Notes: generated by a model not told the origin, from the letters alone. 49,506 bases of DNA from Acidimicrobiia bacterium (GCA_025922945.1 JAICGW010000006.1:1-49506), one strand, 5' to 3'; counted from the stretch's first letter, positions 10,695-28,002 are shown. Numbers and translations: made by a program.

Positions 10695-10753
10695 CGAGTC
10701 CTCGAGTAGCTACCGGGGCGATCGTAGCTTGCGGGTACCTACCATCTTTGGGC

Positions 10754-11680
10754 GTGAGCGGTTGGCGTGCGGGGTTGGTCGCCCTCGCCCTCGGCGGTGT
10801 GATCCTGGCTATTGGCTGGGTGATCGGGCGCGATGCTCCCACTCCCGGACCCGGCACCAGCGTCCCGGTGGCCGAAGCCGACGTGACCCTCGCCTGCACG
10901 CAAACCTTCTCACTCGTATGTGGCGAACTGGCCAGCCGGTTCGGTCTGGCCAGCACCAGCTACACCCTGGGCTCTGAGATCGCCTCCGACACGGTCGTAA
11001 TCGGCTTCGCCGGCGACCTCCCGGCCGAAGCGATTTCCTTCGCTCGGAGCCCGATCGCGATCGCGATTTGGGCCGAGAAGGCTCCACGTTTGCAGCAAGC
11101 CTGTGGGCTGGTGGATCCCGCTTGTCTGGTCGGCGAAGCCGGCACCAGCTGGGAGGAACTCGGAGGCTCCCCCGATTGGGGGACGTTGCGACTCGGGCTG
11201 GCAGATCCCGAGACGGGGATCGCCGACCTCGAAGCATGGAAGCTCATCGCCGACCAGCAACCTCCACCCGGCTTCCGCCAGTTCGTGCCCCTCACCAGCC
11301 AGGATGGCGGCAGCCTGCTGCGAGACCTGGTCCTCTTCTCCTCGCGGGCTGACGCGGTGGTGTCCTCTGAGGTCGCAATCGCCGCGCAGCTGGCCAATGC
11401 CCGGGCGAGGGCAGGCCGGCTTGAGGTTTACTACCCCGAGCCCACCCCCTATCTCCCGGTTGCCGCCCTCGGCGAGGGGCGGGCCGCCAACTCTTTCGTC
11501 GAAAGCTTGAGCGGTCCCGAAATTCAGGCTCTGCTCGGTAGCCTGGGTCTTCGCCCCCTGACCGGCGAGCCCATCGACCTGCTCGAAGACCTGGGTGAGC
11601 CCGGTACCGAGACGGCCGGGGCAAGCCAAGCAGAGAGACCCGCATTGGTAGCGAGTTGGGACACACTGATAGGAGCATGA
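10754..11680 (+). CDS. Membrane-anchored periplasmic-binding-like protein
   Basis: 308 residues. Residues about 4-25 (GLVALALGGVILAIGWVIG) form one transmembrane anchor without a lipobox Cys; a Pro/Gly-rich linker follows, and the rest resembles a type-2 solute-binding fold. ISFARSPIAIAIWAEKA is like the hinge segment of molybdate/sulfate-type binding proteins. Ligand unknown. I prefer GTG at 10754 over TTG at 10748 because TACCAT (10740-10745) lies 8 bases before the GTG. The stop overlaps the start of the next gene (ATGA). It opens the operon with the vWA lipoprotein, which carries its own binding-protein domain, suggesting the two extracytoplasmic proteins work together. Confidence 0.6.
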   Translation: MSGWRAGLVALALGGVILAIGWVIGRDAPTPGPGTSVPVAEADVTLACTQTFSLVCGELASRFGLASTSYTLGSEIASDTVVIGFAGDLPAEAISFARSPIAIAIWAEKAPRLQQACGLVDPACLVGEAGTSWEELGGSPDWGTLRLGLADPETGIADLEAWKLIADQQPPPGFRQFVPLTSQDGGSLLRDLVLFSSRADAVVSSEVAIAAQLANARARAGRLEVYYPEPTPYLPVAALGEGRAANSFVESLSGPEIQALLGSLGLRPLTGEPIDLLEDLGEPGTETAGASQAERPALVASWDTLIGA

Positions 11681-13461
11681 TGATCACTCGACGGGCGCGT
11701 CTCCGCTGGCCTCTGGCCTTGCTGGCCCTGGTAGCCGCGTGTACCTCCGGCGGCCCGCTGACAACCGACGGGTCCGGTGTCGTCGTGCCCGGCGGTTGCG
11801 AGGAGGTACCGATCGCCACCTCCCCCGAGAAGTTCACCTTGTTCACATCGCTCGCCGAAACATTCAATGCCACCGAGACCGAGTTCGAAGGCGAATGCGC
11901 GGTGATCACGGTCTACCGAGCGTCCTCAGGGGCGGCGGCTCGCATGCTGGCCGAGGGCTGGCCCGAGGATGGGTCTGCCGGACCCCTGCCCGTGATCTGG
12001 TCCCCTGCCGCCAGCACCTGGGGTGCGATCGTCAACGAGCGTCTTGCTGCCCGGGGCGAGGCGCCGATCGCCAACGACTTTCAACGGGTGATGATCACTC
12101 CTCTGGTCCTGGGGATGCCGCGCCCGATGGCAGAAGCCCTGGGCTGGCCGGAAACCGACGTGGGCTGGGCCGACGTCCTCCAGCTCGCCTCCGACCCCGA
12201 GGGGTGGGGAGCCCTCGGCCATCCCGAGTGGGGCGACTTCCGGCTCGGCAAGACCAATCCCAACTTCTCGACCTCGGGCCTGGCGGCCACCGCCGCGACC
12301 TACTACGCCGGCACCGGAAAGACCTCGGGGCTGACCATATCCGATCTCGATGATCCCGAAGTCCTCGAGTTCGTCCGCGGCGTGGAGGCAGCCACTGTCC
12401 ACTACGGCGACACCACCCTCACCTTTCTCGACAACATGTATCGCGCCGATCAAGAGGGCCGCGGACTGACCTACGCCTCGGCGGTGGCGGTGGAAGAAGT
12501 GTCGATCATTGCCTACAACCGGGGCGATCCCGCCGATACCGGCACCCCGGGTCCGCCGCCCCGGGTGCCCCTCGTCGCCATCTATCCGGTAGAAGGGACG
12601 CTCTTCTCCGACAATCCGGCCTACATCCTCGATGCCCCCTGGGTCACCGACGTCGCGCGCCAGGCCGCCACCGCTTTCCGCTCGTTTGTGATCGACGACG
12701 CCGCCAACCAGCAGCGAGTTCTCGAGTTCGGTTTTCGCCCGGGGAATCCGTCGGTGGCGATCGGGGATCCGATCAATTCGGCCAATGGCCTCAATCCCAA
12801 CAAGCCAGACACCGAGCTCGCCGTTCCCGATCCGGAAGTGCTCACCGCCCTGCTCGACAGCTGGGAGGAGAATCGCAAGACCGCCCGGGTGATCATGCTT
12901 TTCGACGTCTCCGGTTCGATGGCGGACCTCGCCGGAGGGGGGGACACCAAGCTCGCATTGGCCAAACAGGCCGTCCTCTCCGGCCTTGACAATTTCAAGC
13001 CCGACGACGAGATCGGCCTCTGGATCTTCTCGACCAACCTCGACGGCGACAACGACTACATCGAGGTGATCCCCCCGGCTCCCCTCGAGGACATTCGCCC
13101 GCAGCTCGAGGAATCCATCAACGGGCTCGTGGCCGACGGCGGCACCGGCCTTTACGACTCCACGCGGGCTGCGGTGCAGGCGGTCCGCGACGGCTTCGAT
13201 CAAACCAAGATCAACGCGGTGCTGTTGCTCACCGACGGGATGTGCGATGACAACCCGCCCGGCTGCGAGCTCGACCCGCTGCTCGGTTTTCTGGGATCGA
13301 ACGAGCGTGACGTCGTGCGAGTGTTTCCGGTGGCGTACGGAGAAGATGCCTCGGTGGAAGAGTTGACCGCCATCGCCAATGCGTCGGCGGCCCGCCTTTA
13401 TCAAGCGACCAACCCGCTAACCATCGAAGCGGTCTTCCAACAAGTGATCTCGAACTTCTGA
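11677..13461 (+). CDS. Lipoprotein with solute-binding-like domain and vWA domain
   Basis: 594 residues. The N-terminus MMITRRARLRW, a hydrophobic stretch and LVAAC form a lipoprotein signal, so the protein should be anchored outside the membrane. Residues about 40-370 look like an extracellular solute-binding domain (VIWSPAASTWGAIV; later YPVEGTLFSDNPAYILDAPW). Residues about 404-590 are a von Willebrand A domain with a complete metal site: DVSGS (D410, S412, S414), Thr in DGGTGLYDST, and Asp in LLLTDGM. Actinobacteria are known to have proteins with this architecture; their function is unsettled. AGGAG (11671-11675) precedes tandem ATGs at 11677 and 11680; either could be used. Confidence 0.8.
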   Translation: MMITRRARLRWPLALLALVAACTSGGPLTTDGSGVVVPGGCEEVPIATSPEKFTLFTSLAETFNATETEFEGECAVITVYRASSGAAARMLAEGWPEDGSAGPLPVIWSPAASTWGAIVNERLAARGEAPIANDFQRVMITPLVLGMPRPMAEALGWPETDVGWADVLQLASDPEGWGALGHPEWGDFRLGKTNPNFSTSGLAATAATYYAGTGKTSGLTISDLDDPEVLEFVRGVEAATVHYGDTTLTFLDNMYRADQEGRGLTYASAVAVEEVSIIAYNRGDPADTGTPGPPPRVPLVAIYPVEGTLFSDNPAYILDAPWVTDVARQAATAFRSFVIDDAANQQRVLEFGFRPGNPSVAIGDPINSANGLNPNKPDTELAVPDPEVLTALLDSWEENRKTARVIMLFDVSGSMADLAGGGDTKLALAKQAVLSGLDNFKPDDEIGLWIFSTNLDGDNDYIEVIPPAPLEDIRPQLEESINGLVADGGTGLYDSTRAAVQAVRDGFDQTKINAVLLLTDGMCDDNPPGCELDPLLGFLGSNERDVVRVFPVAYGEDASVEELTAIANASAARLYQATNPLTIEAVFQQVISNF

Positions 13462-13465
13462 GCCA

Positions 13466-14236
13466 ATGACCAACCGCCCCGGCAGCAGTCGCATGGGAAG
13501 CGTCTTCCGCTACAACCCGGTCACCCGGAAGAGCAGGCGCTTGCTCCGGGCGATGTTCAGCCCGGCCGGGGTCGTGGCCACGGCCGGATTAATCGGCGGC
13601 GGACTAGCCCTCGGTCTCTCGGCTCCGTTCGTGGCCGGGGCGGCGGTGGTCGGGTTTGTCGCCTCGGCTTTGATGCACCTTCGCGACCCCAAGCTCGCTG
13701 CTTCGATGGTGGCTCCTGAATTCGACCGGGACCTGAGCCGCCTCGACGCTGAGCACCTCCCGCTGATGGTGAGCGGCCTCGAAGCCCGGGACCGCCTGGA
13801 ACATGCCATGGAGTCTTGGACCGGGGGTGAGAACGAGGGAATGATGGCGCGGGTGACCGAGACTCTCCGCAAGCTCTACGACTCCGTTCTCTGGGTGCAG
13901 CGGGCGGACAAGTTTCTGTCGACCGTCGACGAGCGTCGCCTACTGGCAAGGCTCAGCGAGCTCTCGCCGGGACCTCTGCGCGAGGAGATGGAAGCCCAGG
14001 TTCGCGAGGTGACCAACATTCGCGCCCGTCGCGAGGAGGCCGTCTCGCGAGTCGTCGCCACGACGACTGGCATCGACACGCTGGCCGTCAAGGCACATTC
14101 GATAGCCCTCACTTCCACCGGACCCGATCAGACCACGGACGAAGTGGCCGCCCTTCGCGCCGAACTCAACGCCTACGCCCGCGGACTCGAAGAGATCGAG
14201 GAGCACCTGCAAGACGCCCTCCCCCAGATCTCGTGA
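13466..14236 (+). CDS. Membrane-anchored coiled-coil protein of unknown function
   Basis: 256 residues that I cannot place in a named family. A basic N-terminus (NPVTRKSRRLLRA) is followed by two close hydrophobic segments, about residues 34-50 and 53-68, that could form a hairpin in the membrane, then a long charged helical region (about 75-250) rich in Glu, Arg and Leu with heptad-like spacing, ending in LEEIEEHLQDALPQIS. It lies 4 bases after the vWA gene and overlaps pgl as GTGA, so it belongs to the operon. The architecture suggests a cytoplasmic helical rod tethered to the membrane, possibly the inner-face partner of the two extracytoplasmic proteins; that is inference. Confidence 0.6.
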   Translation: MTNRPGSSRMGSVFRYNPVTRKSRRLLRAMFSPAGVVATAGLIGGGLALGLSAPFVAGAAVVGFVASALMHLRDPKLAASMVAPEFDRDLSRLDAEHLPLMVSGLEARDRLEHAMESWTGGENEGMMARVTETLRKLYDSVLWVQRADKFLSTVDERRLLARLSELSPGPLREEMEAQVREVTNIRARREEAVSRVVATTTGIDTLAVKAHSIALTSTGPDQTTDEVAALRAELNAYARGLEEIEEHLQDALPQIS

Positions 14237-14919
14237 ACACCGTCGTCTTCGACGATGCTCGGGCTCTGGTTCATGGTGCCGCCGATCACCTGGCGGCTTT
14301 GATCACCGCCGCCCCTGGTCCCCGCGTTTCCGTGGGCCTGGCCGGCGGATCGACGCCGGCGGCGATCTACCTTCAGCTACGGCAACGCGAGGTCGACTGG
14401 AGCCGGGTCGACTTCTGGCTGTCAGATGAGAGATGGGTCCCCTGGCATGACCAGGATTCCAACGGGAAGATGGCTGAGGAGAACCTGGTGGGCCATGTCT
14501 CGGGCCGCTACCTGAGGCCGAGATGGGCTCCTTGGCTCGAGCCGGGCGAGTCGGCCACCCAATACGAGGATGAGTTGCGCTCGCTTCATACTGGCGAGCA
14601 TCCGCCGGACTTGATCCTCCTCGGAATGGGTGATGACGGTCATTGCGCTTCGCTCTTCCCCGGCACGGAAGCGCTCTCGGTGATCGATCGTTGGTTCGTC
14701 GCCAACTTCGTTCCCTCCCTCGATGTCTGGCGCCTCACCTCCACCTTTCCTCTCCTCGACGTCGCCCGGCAGATCGTCTTCATGATCGGAGGCGCGTCCA
14801 AGGCCGAAGCAGTCGCCCGGGTCGCCGGTGGTGAAGACCTCCCCACCACCCGGGTAAGCAAGGGATCGGCTCCAGTGACGTTCCTCCTCGACCGGGCGGC
14901 GGCTGCCCTCATCGCATGA
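14233..14919 (+). CDS. pgl: 6-phosphogluconolactonase
   Basis: Hydrolyses 6-phosphogluconolactone to 6-phosphogluconate, the second step of the oxidative pentose phosphate pathway. 228 residues, normal for the DevB/SOL type. VSVGLAGGSTPAAIYLQL is the phosphate-binding region, WLSDERWVPWHDQDSNGKM the active-site signature and LILLGMGDDGHCASLFPGT the second one with its His. The GTG start overlaps the upstream coiled-coil gene (GTGA) and the stop overlaps the next gene (ATGA). The other genes of this pathway, zwf and gnd, lie about 29 kb away. Confidence 0.93.
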   Translation: MNTVVFDDARALVHGAADHLAALITAAPGPRVSVGLAGGSTPAAIYLQLRQREVDWSRVDFWLSDERWVPWHDQDSNGKMAEENLVGHVSGRYLRPRWAPWLEPGESATQYEDELRSLHTGEHPPDLILLGMGDDGHCASLFPGTEALSVIDRWFVANFVPSLDVWRLTSTFPLLDVARQIVFMIGGASKAEAVARVAGGEDLPTTRVSKGSAPVTFLLDRAAAALIA

Positions 14920-15764
14920 ACCGGGCTTGGTGGCTGGGCCTGGTTTTGCTGTGGGCCTGCAGCGGCGAAGTCGATCCCACGACGACCACGATCACGGTCA
15001 CCACTTCCGGTTCGACCACCGCTGAGGCGGAATCCGAGTTCCTGCGCCGAATCGATTCCATCGGCGACTTGCCGGTGACCGTATACGCCCCGCCATCGGT
15101 AGGGCCATATCCGGTAGTGGTCCTCTTCCACGGAGGCGGCTGGTTTGGTGGTGCCCCGCTCTCGACTGCCCCGCTGGCCGAGTTCCTGGCTTCCGAGGGC
15201 ATCGTGGTCTTCAACTCGACCTACCGCACCCAAACCGGGGGTTATCCCGAGAGCTTCGACGACGTCGCCTGCGCGGTCCGATACGCCCGCGCCAACGCCA
15301 GCAACTACACGAGCGCCGAGGGGCCGGTCATCCTCGCCGGTCATTCGGCCGGGGCCCATCTGGCTTCGGTGGTAGCGCTGGCCGGTGACGAGTTTGGGAA
15401 CGGTTGTCCGGTCGAGGAGACGGCAACGGTGGATCGCTTCATCGGCCTCGCCGGCCCTTACGATCCGACCTTGTATCGACAGGTGCTGCCGGCGTTTTTT
15501 GGTACCCGTTTCGAGAACGACCCTGGCCCCTGGGAGGCTGGTTCGGCCTATTCGTATCTCGGCGACAACCCGGGACTCGAGATCCTGCTCATGCACGGCG
15601 AAGCCGACGAGTTGGTACCGATCAGCTCGACCCGGCTATTCGCCGATGCCCTGGCAGAAGCCGGGTACCGCGTCGAGATGGCCGCGGTGGCAAAGGCGCA
15701 TCATCAGGACCTGCGGGACCCCAGTGTCGTTGGAGACGCCGTCGTCAGATTCGTGAGTCAGTAA
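14916..15764 (+). CDS. Secreted lipoprotein alpha/beta-hydrolase (BD-FAE/HSL-like)
   Basis: 282 residues. MNRAWWLGLVLLWAC is a short lipoprotein signal with the lipobox Cys at 15, followed by a Thr-rich linker. The hydrolase domain has VVVLFHGGGWFGG (HGGG oxyanion motif of the hormone-sensitive-lipase class), AGHSAGAHLAS (catalytic Ser in GHSAG), LLMHGEADELVP (Asp) and AKAHHQDL (His). It should act on esters outside the membrane; the substrate is unknown. Its start overlaps pgl (ATGA), making it the last gene of the 10754-15764 operon, and its end overlaps the convergent glycosylase gene by 7 bases. Confidence 0.82.
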   Translation: MNRAWWLGLVLLWACSGEVDPTTTTITVTTSGSTTAEAESEFLRRIDSIGDLPVTVYAPPSVGPYPVVVLFHGGGWFGGAPLSTAPLAEFLASEGIVVFNSTYRTQTGGYPESFDDVACAVRYARANASNYTSAEGPVILAGHSAGAHLASVVALAGDEFGNGCPVEETATVDRFIGLAGPYDPTLYRQVLPAFFGTRFENDPGPWEAGSAYSYLGDNPGLEILLMHGEADELVPISSTRLFADALAEAGYRVEMAAVAKAHHQDLRDPSVVGDAVVRFVSQ

Positions 15765-24697: not shown

Positions 24698-25998
24698 GAA
24701 ACGTACGATGGTGGATCCTCATCGCCGTCATCGCCCTCGTGGCGGCGGCATGTGGCGATGGTGGAGCCGCAACCACAAGCGCAGGAGAAACACCCGCCAC
24801 GACCGCGGGCGAAGCCCCGGCGACGACGGCGGGAGAAGCGCCCGCCACCACCGGGGCCGGAACCGGGGACCTGGCGGGAGTCGAACTCAAGGTATGGGGA
24901 GGCTCATCGGGGACCGCCGAAGACGAGGCCCTGACGGAGCTGCTCAACCAGTTCAACTCGGAAACCGGCGCCAACGCGGTCTTCGAACCTCAACAGGACA
25001 TGACCACTGCCCTCAACACGGCCCTGGCCGGTGGAGATCCACCGGACGTCTTCTATGTCGACAGCAACAACCTGCCTGACCTGGCAGACGCCGGAGCCCT
25101 GGCCCCCATCCCTGAAGGTGCCCTCACGGAACCGGATGACATCTACCCCTCGCTGCGGGAGGCCTTCACCTACGACGGAACCTGGTACTGCCCACCGAAG
25201 GACTTCTCCACCCTGGGGCTGGTCTATGACCCCGCGGCTTTGGAAGCAGCCGGTGTCGCGGTGCCCACCACCTGGGAAGAGCTGGCCGCGGCGGCGGAAG
25301 CCCTGACCACCGACACCCAGGCGGGCCTGGCGATGGGGGTCGAGTATCCGCGCTGGGGGGTGTTCCTGTTCCAGGCTGGAGCTGACCTCACCAACCCCGA
25401 CGTGTCAGAGATCACGCTCGATACCCCCGAGGCCCGGGAGGCGCTCCAGTTCGTCGCCGATCAATACGCCTCCGGGAGCTTCGTCCGTCCCTCCGACGTC
25501 GATGCCGGATGGGCCGGAGAGGCCTTCGGTCAGGGAAAGGCGGCAATGACCATTGAAGGCAACTGGATCGTGGGATATCTCGACCAGACCTTCCCCGATA
25601 AGGAGTGGGCCGTGGCCGAGCTACCCGCCGGACCGGCCGGAGAAGGGACCTTCGCCTTCACCGTTTGCTACGGAGTAGCGGAGTCGGCCCCCAACCCGGA
25701 TGCGTCCTGGGCTTTGATCGAATACCTGACCAACTCCGAGGGTGCTCTCGCCTGGACGTCGGCGTTCAACGTGATGCCCGCCCGGGAATCGGTTGCCGAG
25801 ACGTGGCTTAACGATCATCCCGAGCTGGAAGCATTCGTCACGGGTGCCGACTACGCCCATCGCTGGGGCTTCGCGCCCGGGTTCGGCGACGTGATCGGGG
25901 TCTTCAACGAACAAGCGAACGCCATCGTCGATGGCGACGCCACCGTTGACGATCTGATCTCGGAGACGGTCAGTGCCGGAGAGGACGTCATCAGCTGA
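24694..25998 (+). CDS. ABC transporter sugar-binding lipoprotein (family 1)
   Basis: 434 residues. I use GTG at 24694, which overlaps the GH65 stop (GTGA) and has GGGAG 8-9 bases upstream; it starts a clean lipoprotein signal (RNVRWWILIAVIAL, then VAAAC). An Ala/Thr-rich linker made of repeated ATTAGEAP-like units (about residues 25-52) tethers the binding domain. ELKVWGGSSGTAEDEALTEL opens a family 1 solute-binding fold; GKAAMTIEGNWIVGYL is the typical later block. It should deliver an oligosaccharide, presumably the GH65 substrate, to the two permeases. A strong hairpin follows its stop. Confidence 0.9.
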   Translation: MRNVRWWILIAVIALVAAACGDGGAATTSAGETPATTAGEAPATTAGEAPATTGAGTGDLAGVELKVWGGSSGTAEDEALTELLNQFNSETGANAVFEPQQDMTTALNTALAGGDPPDVFYVDSNNLPDLADAGALAPIPEGALTEPDDIYPSLREAFTYDGTWYCPPKDFSTLGLVYDPAALEAAGVAVPTTWEELAAAAEALTTDTQAGLAMGVEYPRWGVFLFQAGADLTNPDVSEITLDTPEAREALQFVADQYASGSFVRPSDVDAGWAGEAFGQGKAAMTIEGNWIVGYLDQTFPDKEWAVAELPAGPAGEGTFAFTVCYGVAESAPNPDASWALIEYLTNSEGALAWTSAFNVMPARESVAETWLNDHPELEAFVTGADYAHRWGFAPGFGDVIGVFNEQANAIVDGDATVDDLISETVSAGEDVIS

Positions 25999-27101
25999 TG
26001 AACGTATCTGGGGGGTCGGGCAACCGACCCCCCAGATCGAACCTGGAGGAGGAGAAAACGTCGACGACGCTTAAACCCCCCGCCCTCGGGCGCGCACCCC
26101 ATCGGGCGCGTCTCGACAAGAGAGAACCCTTACTGGGCTGGCTGTTCAGCGCCCCAGCAGTGCTGGGCCTGATTGTCTTCCTGGTGATACCAATCGTCGC
26201 TGCGGTTTGGGTCAGCTTCCGTGATTGGAATGGAATCGCTTCGATCTTCGACTCGGAGTCGGTGGGATTGGCTAACTATCGAGAGTTGCTCACCGACGAT
26301 GGCGTCAGGCGGACCGACTTCGCCATCAGCCTGCGCAACAACCTCTACTACGTGCTCGGGGTGGTGCCGACTCAGACGATCATCGCCTTCATCCTCGCGG
26401 TGATCCTCAACCAGAAACTTCTGAAAGGAAAGGGATTCTTTCGCACGGCTTACTACTTTCCTTCGATAACGAGCTCGATCGCCATCACGCTGATCTTCGT
26501 CTTCTTGTTTCAGACCAATGGAGCGGTCAATCGAGTTCTTCCCTTCCAGGACATCGACTGGTTGGACAACGCCCGGGGGGTAATCCACAACTTCCTCGGC
26601 GTATTCGGAGTGGAGGGTCCGGCTTTCCTGACCGAGAACGAGTTCATGGGATTGGAGCTGTGGGATTGGCTGGCCGGGCCCAGCGTGGCGATGGTGGCGA
26701 TCATGATGCTGGTCACTTGGACCAGCGTCGGCACCTTTATGCTCATCTTCTTAGCCGGGCTGCAAAACATTTCGCCGTCCATCGAAGAAGCCGCGGTTGT
26801 TGATGGGGCCAGCTCGGTCCAACGGTTCTTCCGCATAACGATCCCGCTGATGAGGCCGACCATTTTCTTCGTCGTCACCCTGGGGCTGATCGGAACTTGG
26901 CAGGTATTCGATCAGGTCTACGCGGGCACTCAAGGTGGGCCTCGCAAGACCACCTTTACTCCCGCCTACCTGATCTACTTCCAGGCCTTTACCAATTCCA
27001 AAGCCGGGCTGGCGGCCGGCATAGCAGTGATTCTCTTTGCCATCATCATGTTTTTCACCTGGGTCAACCGCAAGGTGATCCGCGACACCGGGGACTTTTG
27101 A
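25998..27101 (+). CDS. ABC sugar transporter permease, MalF/ThuF-like
   Basis: Inner-membrane permease with six or more hydrophobic segments from about residue 48 on; the first is WLFSAPAVLGLIVFLVIPIV. EEAAVVDGASSVQRFFRITIPL is the EAA loop that docks the ATPase. The ATG at 25998 overlaps the upstream stop (TGATG), but it would place a 13-bp hairpin inside the first codons. A GGAGGAGGAG (26045-26054) instead points to ACG at 26058, giving an N-terminus TSTTLKPP; initiation there would need a non-standard start or a sequence error. No ATP-binding subunit is encoded nearby, so a shared MsmK-type ATPase is likely. Confidence 0.9.
   Translation: MNVSGGSGNRPPRSNLEEEKTSTTLKPPALGRAPHRARLDKREPLLGWLFSAPAVLGLIVFLVIPIVAAVWVSFRDWNGIASIFDSESVGLANYRELLTDDGVRRTDFAISLRNNLYYVLGVVPTQTIIAFILAVILNQKLLKGKGFFRTAYYFPSITSSIAITLIFVFLFQTNGAVNRVLPFQDIDWLDNARGVIHNFLGVFGVEGPAFLTENEFMGLELWDWLAGPSVAMVAIMMLVTWTSVGTFMLIFLAGLQNISPSIEEAAVVDGASSVQRFFRITIPLMRPTIFFVVTLGLIGTWQVFDQVYAGTQGGPRKTTFTPAYLIYFQAFTNSKAGLAAGIAVILFAIIMFFTWVNRKVIRDTGDF
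26007..26036. repeat. 13-bp hairpin with GCAA tetraloop between binding protein and permease
   Basis: TCTGGGGGGTCGG (26007-26019) pairs perfectly with CCGACCCCCCAGA (26024-26036) around a GCAA loop, a GNRA-type tetraloop. No T-run follows. In other sugar ABC operons a stem-loop after the binding-protein gene protects its mRNA from 3' decay and lowers permease expression; that role is likely here. Confidence 0.8.
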
Positions 27102-27102
27102 G

Positions 27103-27999
27103 ATGGCTGACATTGCCGTGACAAGAAAGCAAGTGGGTGTGCGGGAAAGAGGAGCCGGGCCCCTTCTCAAGCGATTGCTGGGCTATACCGCCCTCGTTTT
27201 CTTCGCACTGATCTTCATCATGCCGTTCGTGCTGTCGGCGGCGACCGCCTTCAAGTCGCTACCCGATATCCAGGCCAATCCGGTGAGCTTGGTGGCCGAT
27301 CCGGCCTACGGAGGCTGGACCACCGAAGGGGTGGAGGCGCTCAACAGTTCGCGGGTGAATCTTCCCCGCTGGACTTTCAACTCAGTTGTAGTGACTGTGT
27401 TCGTGGTCCTGTTGCGGATCACTTTCGGCTCCCTCGCCGGCTATGCGCTCGCCCGAATGCGCTTTCGCGGCCGCGGACTGATCTTTGCGCTCATCCTGGC
27501 GGTACAGGCCATCCCGGGCATTGTCCTCGCCATCCCCCGGTTCATGGTCATGAAGGAGCTTGGGATCATCAATACCTATACCGGGATGATCGTCCCCCTC
27601 GCCTTCGATGCCTTCGCCATCTTCCTGATGAAACAATTCTTCGAACAACTACCGCGCGAACTGGAAGAAGCGGCGGCTCTGGATGGAGCTTCGACCTTCC
27701 AGACTTTCACCCGGGTCATGCTCCCCCTCGCTGCCCCAGGATTGATCGCCCTCATCATCCTTTCCACGCAAGGGGCGTGGAACGAGTTTCTCCATATCCT
27801 GATTGCCCGTATTGGACGACCCGATCTGGCGACCCTCCCCGTGGGGCTGGCCGGCCTCACTGCGGCCTTCGGTCAGGCTCAACCCTGGAACACGATCGTG
27901 GCGGGGTCTTTGATCACCATCATCCCCATCGCCATCGTTTTTTTCGTCTTCCAGCGCTATTTCGTGCAGGGAGCGGCTGCCTCGGCCGTCAAGGGTTGA
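27103..27999 (+). CDS. ABC sugar transporter permease, MalG/ThuG-like
   Basis: 298 residues with about six hydrophobic segments. The EAA loop reads ELEEAAALDGASTFQTFTRV, the docking site for the cytoplasmic ATPase. SATAAFKSLPDIQ after the first membrane segment is typical of MalG-type proteins. The ATG is one base after the stop of the MalF-type gene. Together with the binding lipoprotein and the other permease it forms an importer whose ATPase must come from elsewhere in the genome. A perfect 11-bp hairpin just downstream marks the end of the operon. Confidence 0.93.
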   Translation: MADIAVTRKQVGVRERGAGPLLKRLLGYTALVFFALIFIMPFVLSAATAFKSLPDIQANPVSLVADPAYGGWTTEGVEALNSSRVNLPRWTFNSVVVTVFVVLLRITFGSLAGYALARMRFRGRGLIFALILAVQAIPGIVLAIPRFMVMKELGIINTYTGMIVPLAFDAFAIFLMKQFFEQLPRELEEAAALDGASTFQTFTRVMLPLAAPGLIALIILSTQGAWNEFLHILIARIGRPDLATLPVGLAGLTAAFGQAQPWNTIVAGSLITIIPIAIVFFVFQRYFVQGAAASAVKG

Positions 28000-28002
28000 A
28001 AA

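Follow-up and report, generated by a model that had tools for sequence, protein, structure and literature searches.

PspA repairs membranes under stress. It has been discussed as a member of the ESCRT-III superfamily (PMC11237479, PMC10936438), and the main text of a 2024 survey names Vps4-like and other AAA+ ATPases as well as chaperone-like and thioredoxin proteins as its partners; the same text limits the membrane protein PspM to mycobacteria and corynebacteria (PMC11237479). How PspA systems detect damage is mostly unknown outside Proteobacteria and Firmicutes. The locus described here occupies positions 10,754–15,764 of a 49,506-nucleotide stretch of DNA (the window) from an Acidimicrobiia bacterium (GCA_025922945.1, JAICGW010000006.1:1-49506). 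Its first three genes, referred to as the triad, encode a membrane-anchored protein resembling solute-binding proteins (SBP1), a lipoprotein joining a solute-binding domain to a von Willebrand factor type A (vWA) domain (SBP-vWA), and a membrane hairpin protein. It appears rather probable that the triad provides an actinobacterial envelope-stress system of the Psp type (PspA/ESCRT-III superfamily) with its extracytoplasmic sensor and its membrane adaptor, here separated from the gene for PspA.

Linkage of triad homologs to PspA

A sequence-only reading of the window had described an operon of three tightly coupled genes, followed by pgl and a hydrolase gene. The neighborhood survey it called for covered 149 related genomes, including the window's own (G000, an Acidimicrobiia metagenome genome of 2.56 Mb, 94.6% complete), and showed conservation of the triad, but not of the two genes that follow it. 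Searching with the hairpin protein yielded ten holders, and strong full-length matches to SBP-vWA (E below 1e-180) were obtained in exactly those ten genomes (Fisher 9e-16 for the co-occurrence). The genes for SBP-vWA and the hairpin protein are adjacent in all ten, with SBP1 in front, and the order is kept throughout. Only the first three genes form a conserved unit. The remaining two, pgl and a hydrolase gene, are lineage-specific neighbors: they lie 3′ of the triad in G001 and G005 only, are divergent from it in G016, and do not lie beside the triad in the remaining relatives (for one of these, L044, the flank is a short contig). As a functional partner of the triad, pgl was rejected because its linkage is limited to these three relatives.

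A profile search with SBP-vWA throughout the Actinomycetota gave 27 of 397 genomes; their loci were gene-called and then scanned in six frames with hidden Markov models (HMMs) of the families, while PspA, AAA+, and MurJ were identified by Pfam/NCBIfam. At 16 loci outside the window's taxonomic order, SBP-vWA is followed by a homolog of the hairpin protein, and in 15 of them (L049, L119–L129, L131, L132, and L137, representing nine families; the exception is L134) PspA/IM30 follows the hairpin gene at a distance of one to three genes. A 17th locus, L130, stops at a contig boundary; on another contig of the same genome (L192) a C-terminal piece of the vWA protein, the hairpin protein, and PspA are encoded in succession. 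Another 18 SBP-vWA loci stand alone, without a hairpin gene, and PspA is nearby in none of them; no recurrent partner was found among the neighbors of these solo genes, one of which (L138) adjoins a Ser/Thr kinase gene.

The SpoVK/CbbX/EccA-like AAA+ ATPase is encoded upstream in 12 loci, and MurJ between the hairpin protein and PspA in four of the 16 hairpin-bearing loci. As judged from these family assignments, the full-length operon is AAA+ (SpoVK/CbbX-like)–SBP1–SBP-vWA–hairpin–(MurJ)–PspA. Searching with the hairpin family revealed four further operons (L187–L190), which lack binding proteins and are a minimal form of the system: AAA–hairpin–MurJ–PspA in G138, G256, and G299, and hairpin–MurJ–PspA in G425. 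Because these have hairpin, MurJ, and PspA without binding proteins, the link of hairpin protein and PspA is the tightest; the two are the core pair, to which the binding proteins add an outside module. Hairpin homologs are encoded one to three genes ahead of PspA whether or not binding-protein genes are present, as would be a small integral membrane partner of the PspB/C, LiaI/F, or PspM type. In the window this applies by homology alone: the hairpin proteins of its order are clearly homologous to the PspA-linked ones (an HMM of the latter matches P0003, the window's hairpin protein, at E 4e-20, scaled to 4000 proteins; hhalign 99.6%). The sequence-only reading knew of no described function for the gene set. 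The set is not an orphan: in its relatives it shares one operon with PspA and a SpoVK-like AAA+ ATPase, in some also with MurJ. Since the same set shares one operon with PspA in related bacteria, the triad probably senses cell-envelope damage and is no importer.

Some loci contain additional genes. In one genome family, a Ser/Thr kinase that has a BamB-like beta-propeller domain is encoded on the opposite strand between AAA+ and the triad (L120:3855-6167, L123:4064-6349, L130:3781-6105, L191:9588-11891; Pfam confirmed the two domains in L120 only). In G145, hairpin and PspA are separated by inserted genes for a periplasmic binding protein of the amino-acid type and a class III adenylate cyclase (L049:11411-13568). 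Second, divergent hairpin homologs occur in genomes of the f54 family (L193, L194, L195, L197), with no PspA nearby and with a CorA-like gene, judged from sequence, close in two.

Proteins of the triad and neighboring genes

SBP-vWA (11,677–13,461; all genes of the locus are on the plus strand) matches SBP_bac_11 (E 9e-12) and VWA_2 (E 3e-6). Its lipobox, LALVAAC, contains Cys22 (11,740–11,742; sequence and alignment) and is swapped for a transmembrane (TM)-like segment in two relatives (L046, L047). In the solute-binding domain (11,797–12,846), the pocket-type motifs GKTNPNxST, HYGDTT, SAxAxEE, and YPxEGT are invariant or near-invariant across an alignment of 28 sequences. The vWA domain (12,880–13,458) carries a metal-ion-dependent adhesion site (MIDAS), consisting of DxSxS (12,904–12,918; D410, S412, S414), Thr490 (13,144–13,146), and Asp520 (13,234–13,236); these metal ligands are identical in 28/28 relatives. 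In the AlphaFold2 (AF2) model (mean predicted local distance difference test, pLDDT, 88.4), the fold of the vWA domain matches, among others, the LapA vWA domain and ArnB, and that of the solute-binding domain matches proteins that bind sugar phosphates, sulfate, or oligosaccharides, the closest being the sugar-phosphate binders AfuA and VcA0625; at about 12% identity, these matches are too remote for naming a ligand.

SBP1 (10,754–11,680; GTG start, with TTG at 10,748 also possible) has a single N-terminal TM segment (10,769–10,825; hydropathy peak at residues 8–26 of P0001), and is a degenerate member of the same fold family (SBP_bac_11, E 1e-6). It is a paralog of the solute-binding domain of SBP-vWA (33% identity, E 7e-25, between SBP1 of G145 and P0002, the window's SBP-vWA). 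Because most pocket positions conserved in SBP-vWA are replaced in SBP1, binding of the same ligand is unlikely; a role as structural partner is likelier for SBP1 than one as a second receptor of that ligand. A TM-anchored binding-like protein next to a lipoprotein with an intact vWA metal site is also what the sequence-only reading had described, and domain matches, lipobox, and MIDAS residues agree.

The hairpin protein (13,466–14,236), too, corresponds to its earlier description as a coiled-coil protein having a membrane hairpin: two adjacent hydrophobic segments (residues 34–52 and 54–72 of P0003; TM-like region 13,565–13,681) precede a C-terminal helical rod (13,757–14,218), which the AF2 model gives with confidence, the N-terminal membrane part being of low confidence (mean pLDDT 80.6). 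No fold match was found in the PDB (best E 0.18), profile searches against the PDB returned generic coiled-coil matches only, and Pfam gave nothing meaningful for P0003. P0003 has no match to the NCBIfam model of PspM (PspM_Rv2743c, NF047839; curated cut-off 80 bits); two of 22 homologs match the model weakly (best E 0.023), and in G469, outside the window's order, the only PspM-model match listed (E 0.003) is the hairpin gene beside SBP-vWA. In profile–profile comparison (hhalign) with 13 true PspM sequences, the hairpin family reached P 7e-5 with 22 sequences, 2e-5 with 33, and 1e-4 with the PspA-linked core, the alignment pairing the C-terminal helices collinearly. Scores were 39–43; those of reversed and shuffled profiles and of 72 unrelated family profiles did not exceed 23.5. 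The hairpin family is probably a distant relative of PspM, a link of moderate strength that is carried only by the PspA-linked members. That it is a paralog of PspA was rejected (hhalign score 18).

As had been read from the sequence, all five open reading frames of the locus are present, with coding-type GC periodicity, and the junctions are an ATGA overlap (11,677–11,680) between SBP1 and SBP-vWA, a 4-base gap (13,462–13,465) before the hairpin gene, a GTGA overlap (14,233–14,236) between hairpin gene and pgl, and an ATGA overlap (14,916–14,919) before the last gene. The two genes outside the conserved unit likewise have the identities first proposed: pgl (14,233–14,919), coupled to the triad in this lineage, encodes 6-phosphogluconolactonase (TIGR01198 above cut-off; same family in Pfam), and the fifth gene (14,916–15,764) encodes a secreted lipoprotein, an alpha/beta-hydrolase of the BD-FAE type (E 4e-26) with a lipobox, conserved only within the window's family. 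Transporter subunits, reported absent, were not seen among the called neighbors between 7.5 and 19 kb of the window, and none is conserved with the triad. Opp/Dpp-like ATP-binding cassette (ABC) genes, judged from sequence, are divergent beside the triad in two relatives only (L043:3755-10348, L045:4752-10228). Farther away in the window, GC drops to 0.586 at 26,001–28,000 (0.646 in the preceding bin, 0.619 in the next), where two membrane-protein-like open reading frames lie (25,998–27,999).

Proposed mechanism and alternatives

What was observed is the make-up and conservation of the triad, its topology-type features, and its linkage to PspA beyond the window's order; from this we infer the following signal pathway. 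On the outer side of the membrane, SBP-vWA would bind a small ligand, either anionic or derived from the cell wall, or else a component of the stressed envelope. Through its metal-bound vWA site it may contact a partner, the simplest candidate being the anchored, non-binding paralog SBP1, or another surface partner. This surface complex would act on the two-TM hairpin protein, the putatively cytoplasmic rod of which might recruit PspA, or release it, at the inner membrane face, where PspA would form a membrane-stabilizing polymer. In lineages having one, the AAA+ ATPase may remodel this polymer as Vps4 does with ESCRT-III, a parallel drawn by analogy from the place of PspA in the ESCRT-III superfamily and from the co-occurrence with AAA+. 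More tentatively, the whole could amount to ligand-gated membrane remodeling without a two-component system: an extracytoplasmic SBP-vWA receptor complex would gate a PspM-like adaptor and thereby a PspA polymer resembling ESCRT-III, with a SpoVK/CbbX-type AAA+ ATPase taking the role of Vps4 in its turnover.

Several observations weigh against assigning the triad to a Psp-type system. The sampled taxa are phylogenetically clustered, and the linkage of MurJ and AAA+ is only partial. Taken alone, the hairpin subset from the window's order gives no significant match to PspM (P 0.065), for which reason the protein is called PspM-like and not PspM. In nine genomes of this order PspA never adjoins the triad within the fetched flanks; a single PspA is encoded elsewhere in eight of the nine, at a locus with stable neighbors that differ from the triad, and in G005 (78% complete) the triad is present and PspA was not detected. 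Across genomes, PspA is found in nine of ten triad holders versus 80 of 139 non-holders (p 0.04), a weak association; the functional case is therefore built on homology and on the way the operons of other lineages are organized.

The PspA locus of the window's order typically includes proline dehydrogenase, an Rv1476-like protein, and an iron–sulfur reductase; the Rv1476-like membrane protein (PF20381) is encoded directly upstream of PspA in several genomes (L111–L118), and a homolog is divergent beside the triad–PspA operon of G325 (L119:5303-6334). The window's genome has one PspA, on contig C58 and apart from the triad, which would be the presumed partner; the AAA lid family is absent from this genome, and the AAA+ gene was not found there.

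Among other explanations, the most probable, though we consider it unlikely, is that the unit is a platform for assembly or quality control of some structure of the cell surface or wall (for instance the machinery for lipid II or peptidoglycan), at which PspA would act as an on-site membrane chaperone and not as a stress responder. Domains of the vWA type often mediate metal-dependent protein contacts, eight loci have MurJ placed between hairpin and PspA, and an Rv1476-like gene stands beside PspA in the window's order, with a homolog flanking the operon in L119; most SBP-bearing loci, however, lack MurJ, as do all loci checked in the window's order, and the remaining neighbors differ between lineages.

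Less probable still is repurposing of the triad in the window's order, that is, a function no longer connected to PspA but tied to local neighbors, for instance sugar-phosphate sensing beside pgl. It would account for the loss of the PspA and AAA+ linkage in 9/9 genomes, and both the sugar-phosphate binders among the closest folds and the position of pgl 3′ of the triad in the window's family would suit it. Yet the fold matches, at their low identity, do not fix a ligand, pgl accompanies the triad in just three relatives (in one of them divergently), SBP-vWA is strongly kept within the order (66–82% identity), and PspA is retained in eight of nine genomes.

That the binding proteins belong to an importer with permease and ATPase encoded elsewhere, or that SBP-vWA delivers a solute to a transporter, is quite improbable: the solute-binding domain is intact and folds like the transport-type AfuA and a sulfate-binding protein, and Opp/Dpp-like genes lie beside the triad in two of ten holders, but an ABC permease or ATPase is conserved with it in no lineage, its stable partners being the TM hairpin, PspA, and the AAA+ ATPase, and SBP1 lacks the pocket motifs. 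The sequence-only reading, a complex for sensing or assembly and not an importer, fits this, and it also stands given the co-occurrence of the triad in relatives and the absence of TelA. A tellurite/stress module of the TelA/XpaC or MoxR–vWA type, for which a vWA domain together with a membrane helical protein might speak (XpaC also has an N-terminal membrane part), can be dismissed: TelA (PF05816) has no match in the window's genome, P0003 does not match XpaC (PF10112, Halogen_Hydrol) at E up to 10, nor is that family among the 25 listed for the 22-member hairpin family, its matches in five of 199 genomes include none of the triad genomes of the phylum-wide search, and the AAA+ of the operon is SpoVK/CbbX/EccA-like instead of MoxR.

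Most sampled actinobacterial operons of this kind combine PspA with an ATPase, a membrane adaptor, and an apparent receptor on the outside, and the sensing step would thereby become directly testable.

Comparison with described systems

Literature searches returned no description of the triad gene set. Neither vWA, MurJ, nor SpoVK is mentioned in the main text of PMC11237479, and vWA, binding proteins, and MurJ do not appear in the corresponding part of a 2022 survey (PMC9239133); supplements and web tables may list such contexts. The architecture of SBP-vWA is shared by proteins that NCBI annotates as "substrate-binding and VWA domain-containing protein", for instance one on a plasmid of Streptomyces sp. 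NBC_00564 (42.6% identity over 88%), for which no described function was found; the solo versions sampled differ in having no hairpin or PspA neighbors.

The use of a solute-binding fold for extracytoplasmic sensing and not transport has a precedent in HptA of HptRSA, a binding-protein-like sensor of sugar phosphate; chain 6lkg, among the fold matches of SBP-vWA, is presumably HptA. The triad differs in that it lacks a histidine kinase and has the vWA fusion.

Closer in genomic context are the PspA and AAA+ neighborhoods in the main text of Ravi et al. 2024 (PMC11237479), where a PspA/ESCRT-III gene is accompanied by an AAA+ ATPase and sometimes by an extracellular binding protein. Those, as described there, involve Vps4-like or double-AAA+ proteins, ABC subunits, and PBPB-OmpA proteins, while the triad operons have a SpoVK/CbbX/EccA-like AAA+ ATPase with SBP1 and SBP-vWA as partners and no conserved ABC subunits.

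The mycobacterial ClgR–PspA–PspM–PspN system (Rv2745c–Rv2742c) likewise pairs PspA with a two-TM protein of about 250–280 amino acids with a helical C-terminal part, and PspM resembles the hairpin family in profile (P 2e-5) and layout. The operon, as presented in the main text of PMC11237479, has no SBP, vWA, or AAA+, and its gene order is reversed: PspM follows PspA, directly so in 13/13 genomes checked, whereas the hairpin gene precedes it. The resemblance is a distant one and, for members of the window's order alone, lacks significance; taken through the PspA-linked members, it would extend PspM-like adaptors beyond the mycobacteria and corynebacteria to which the main text of the 2024 survey confines PspM.

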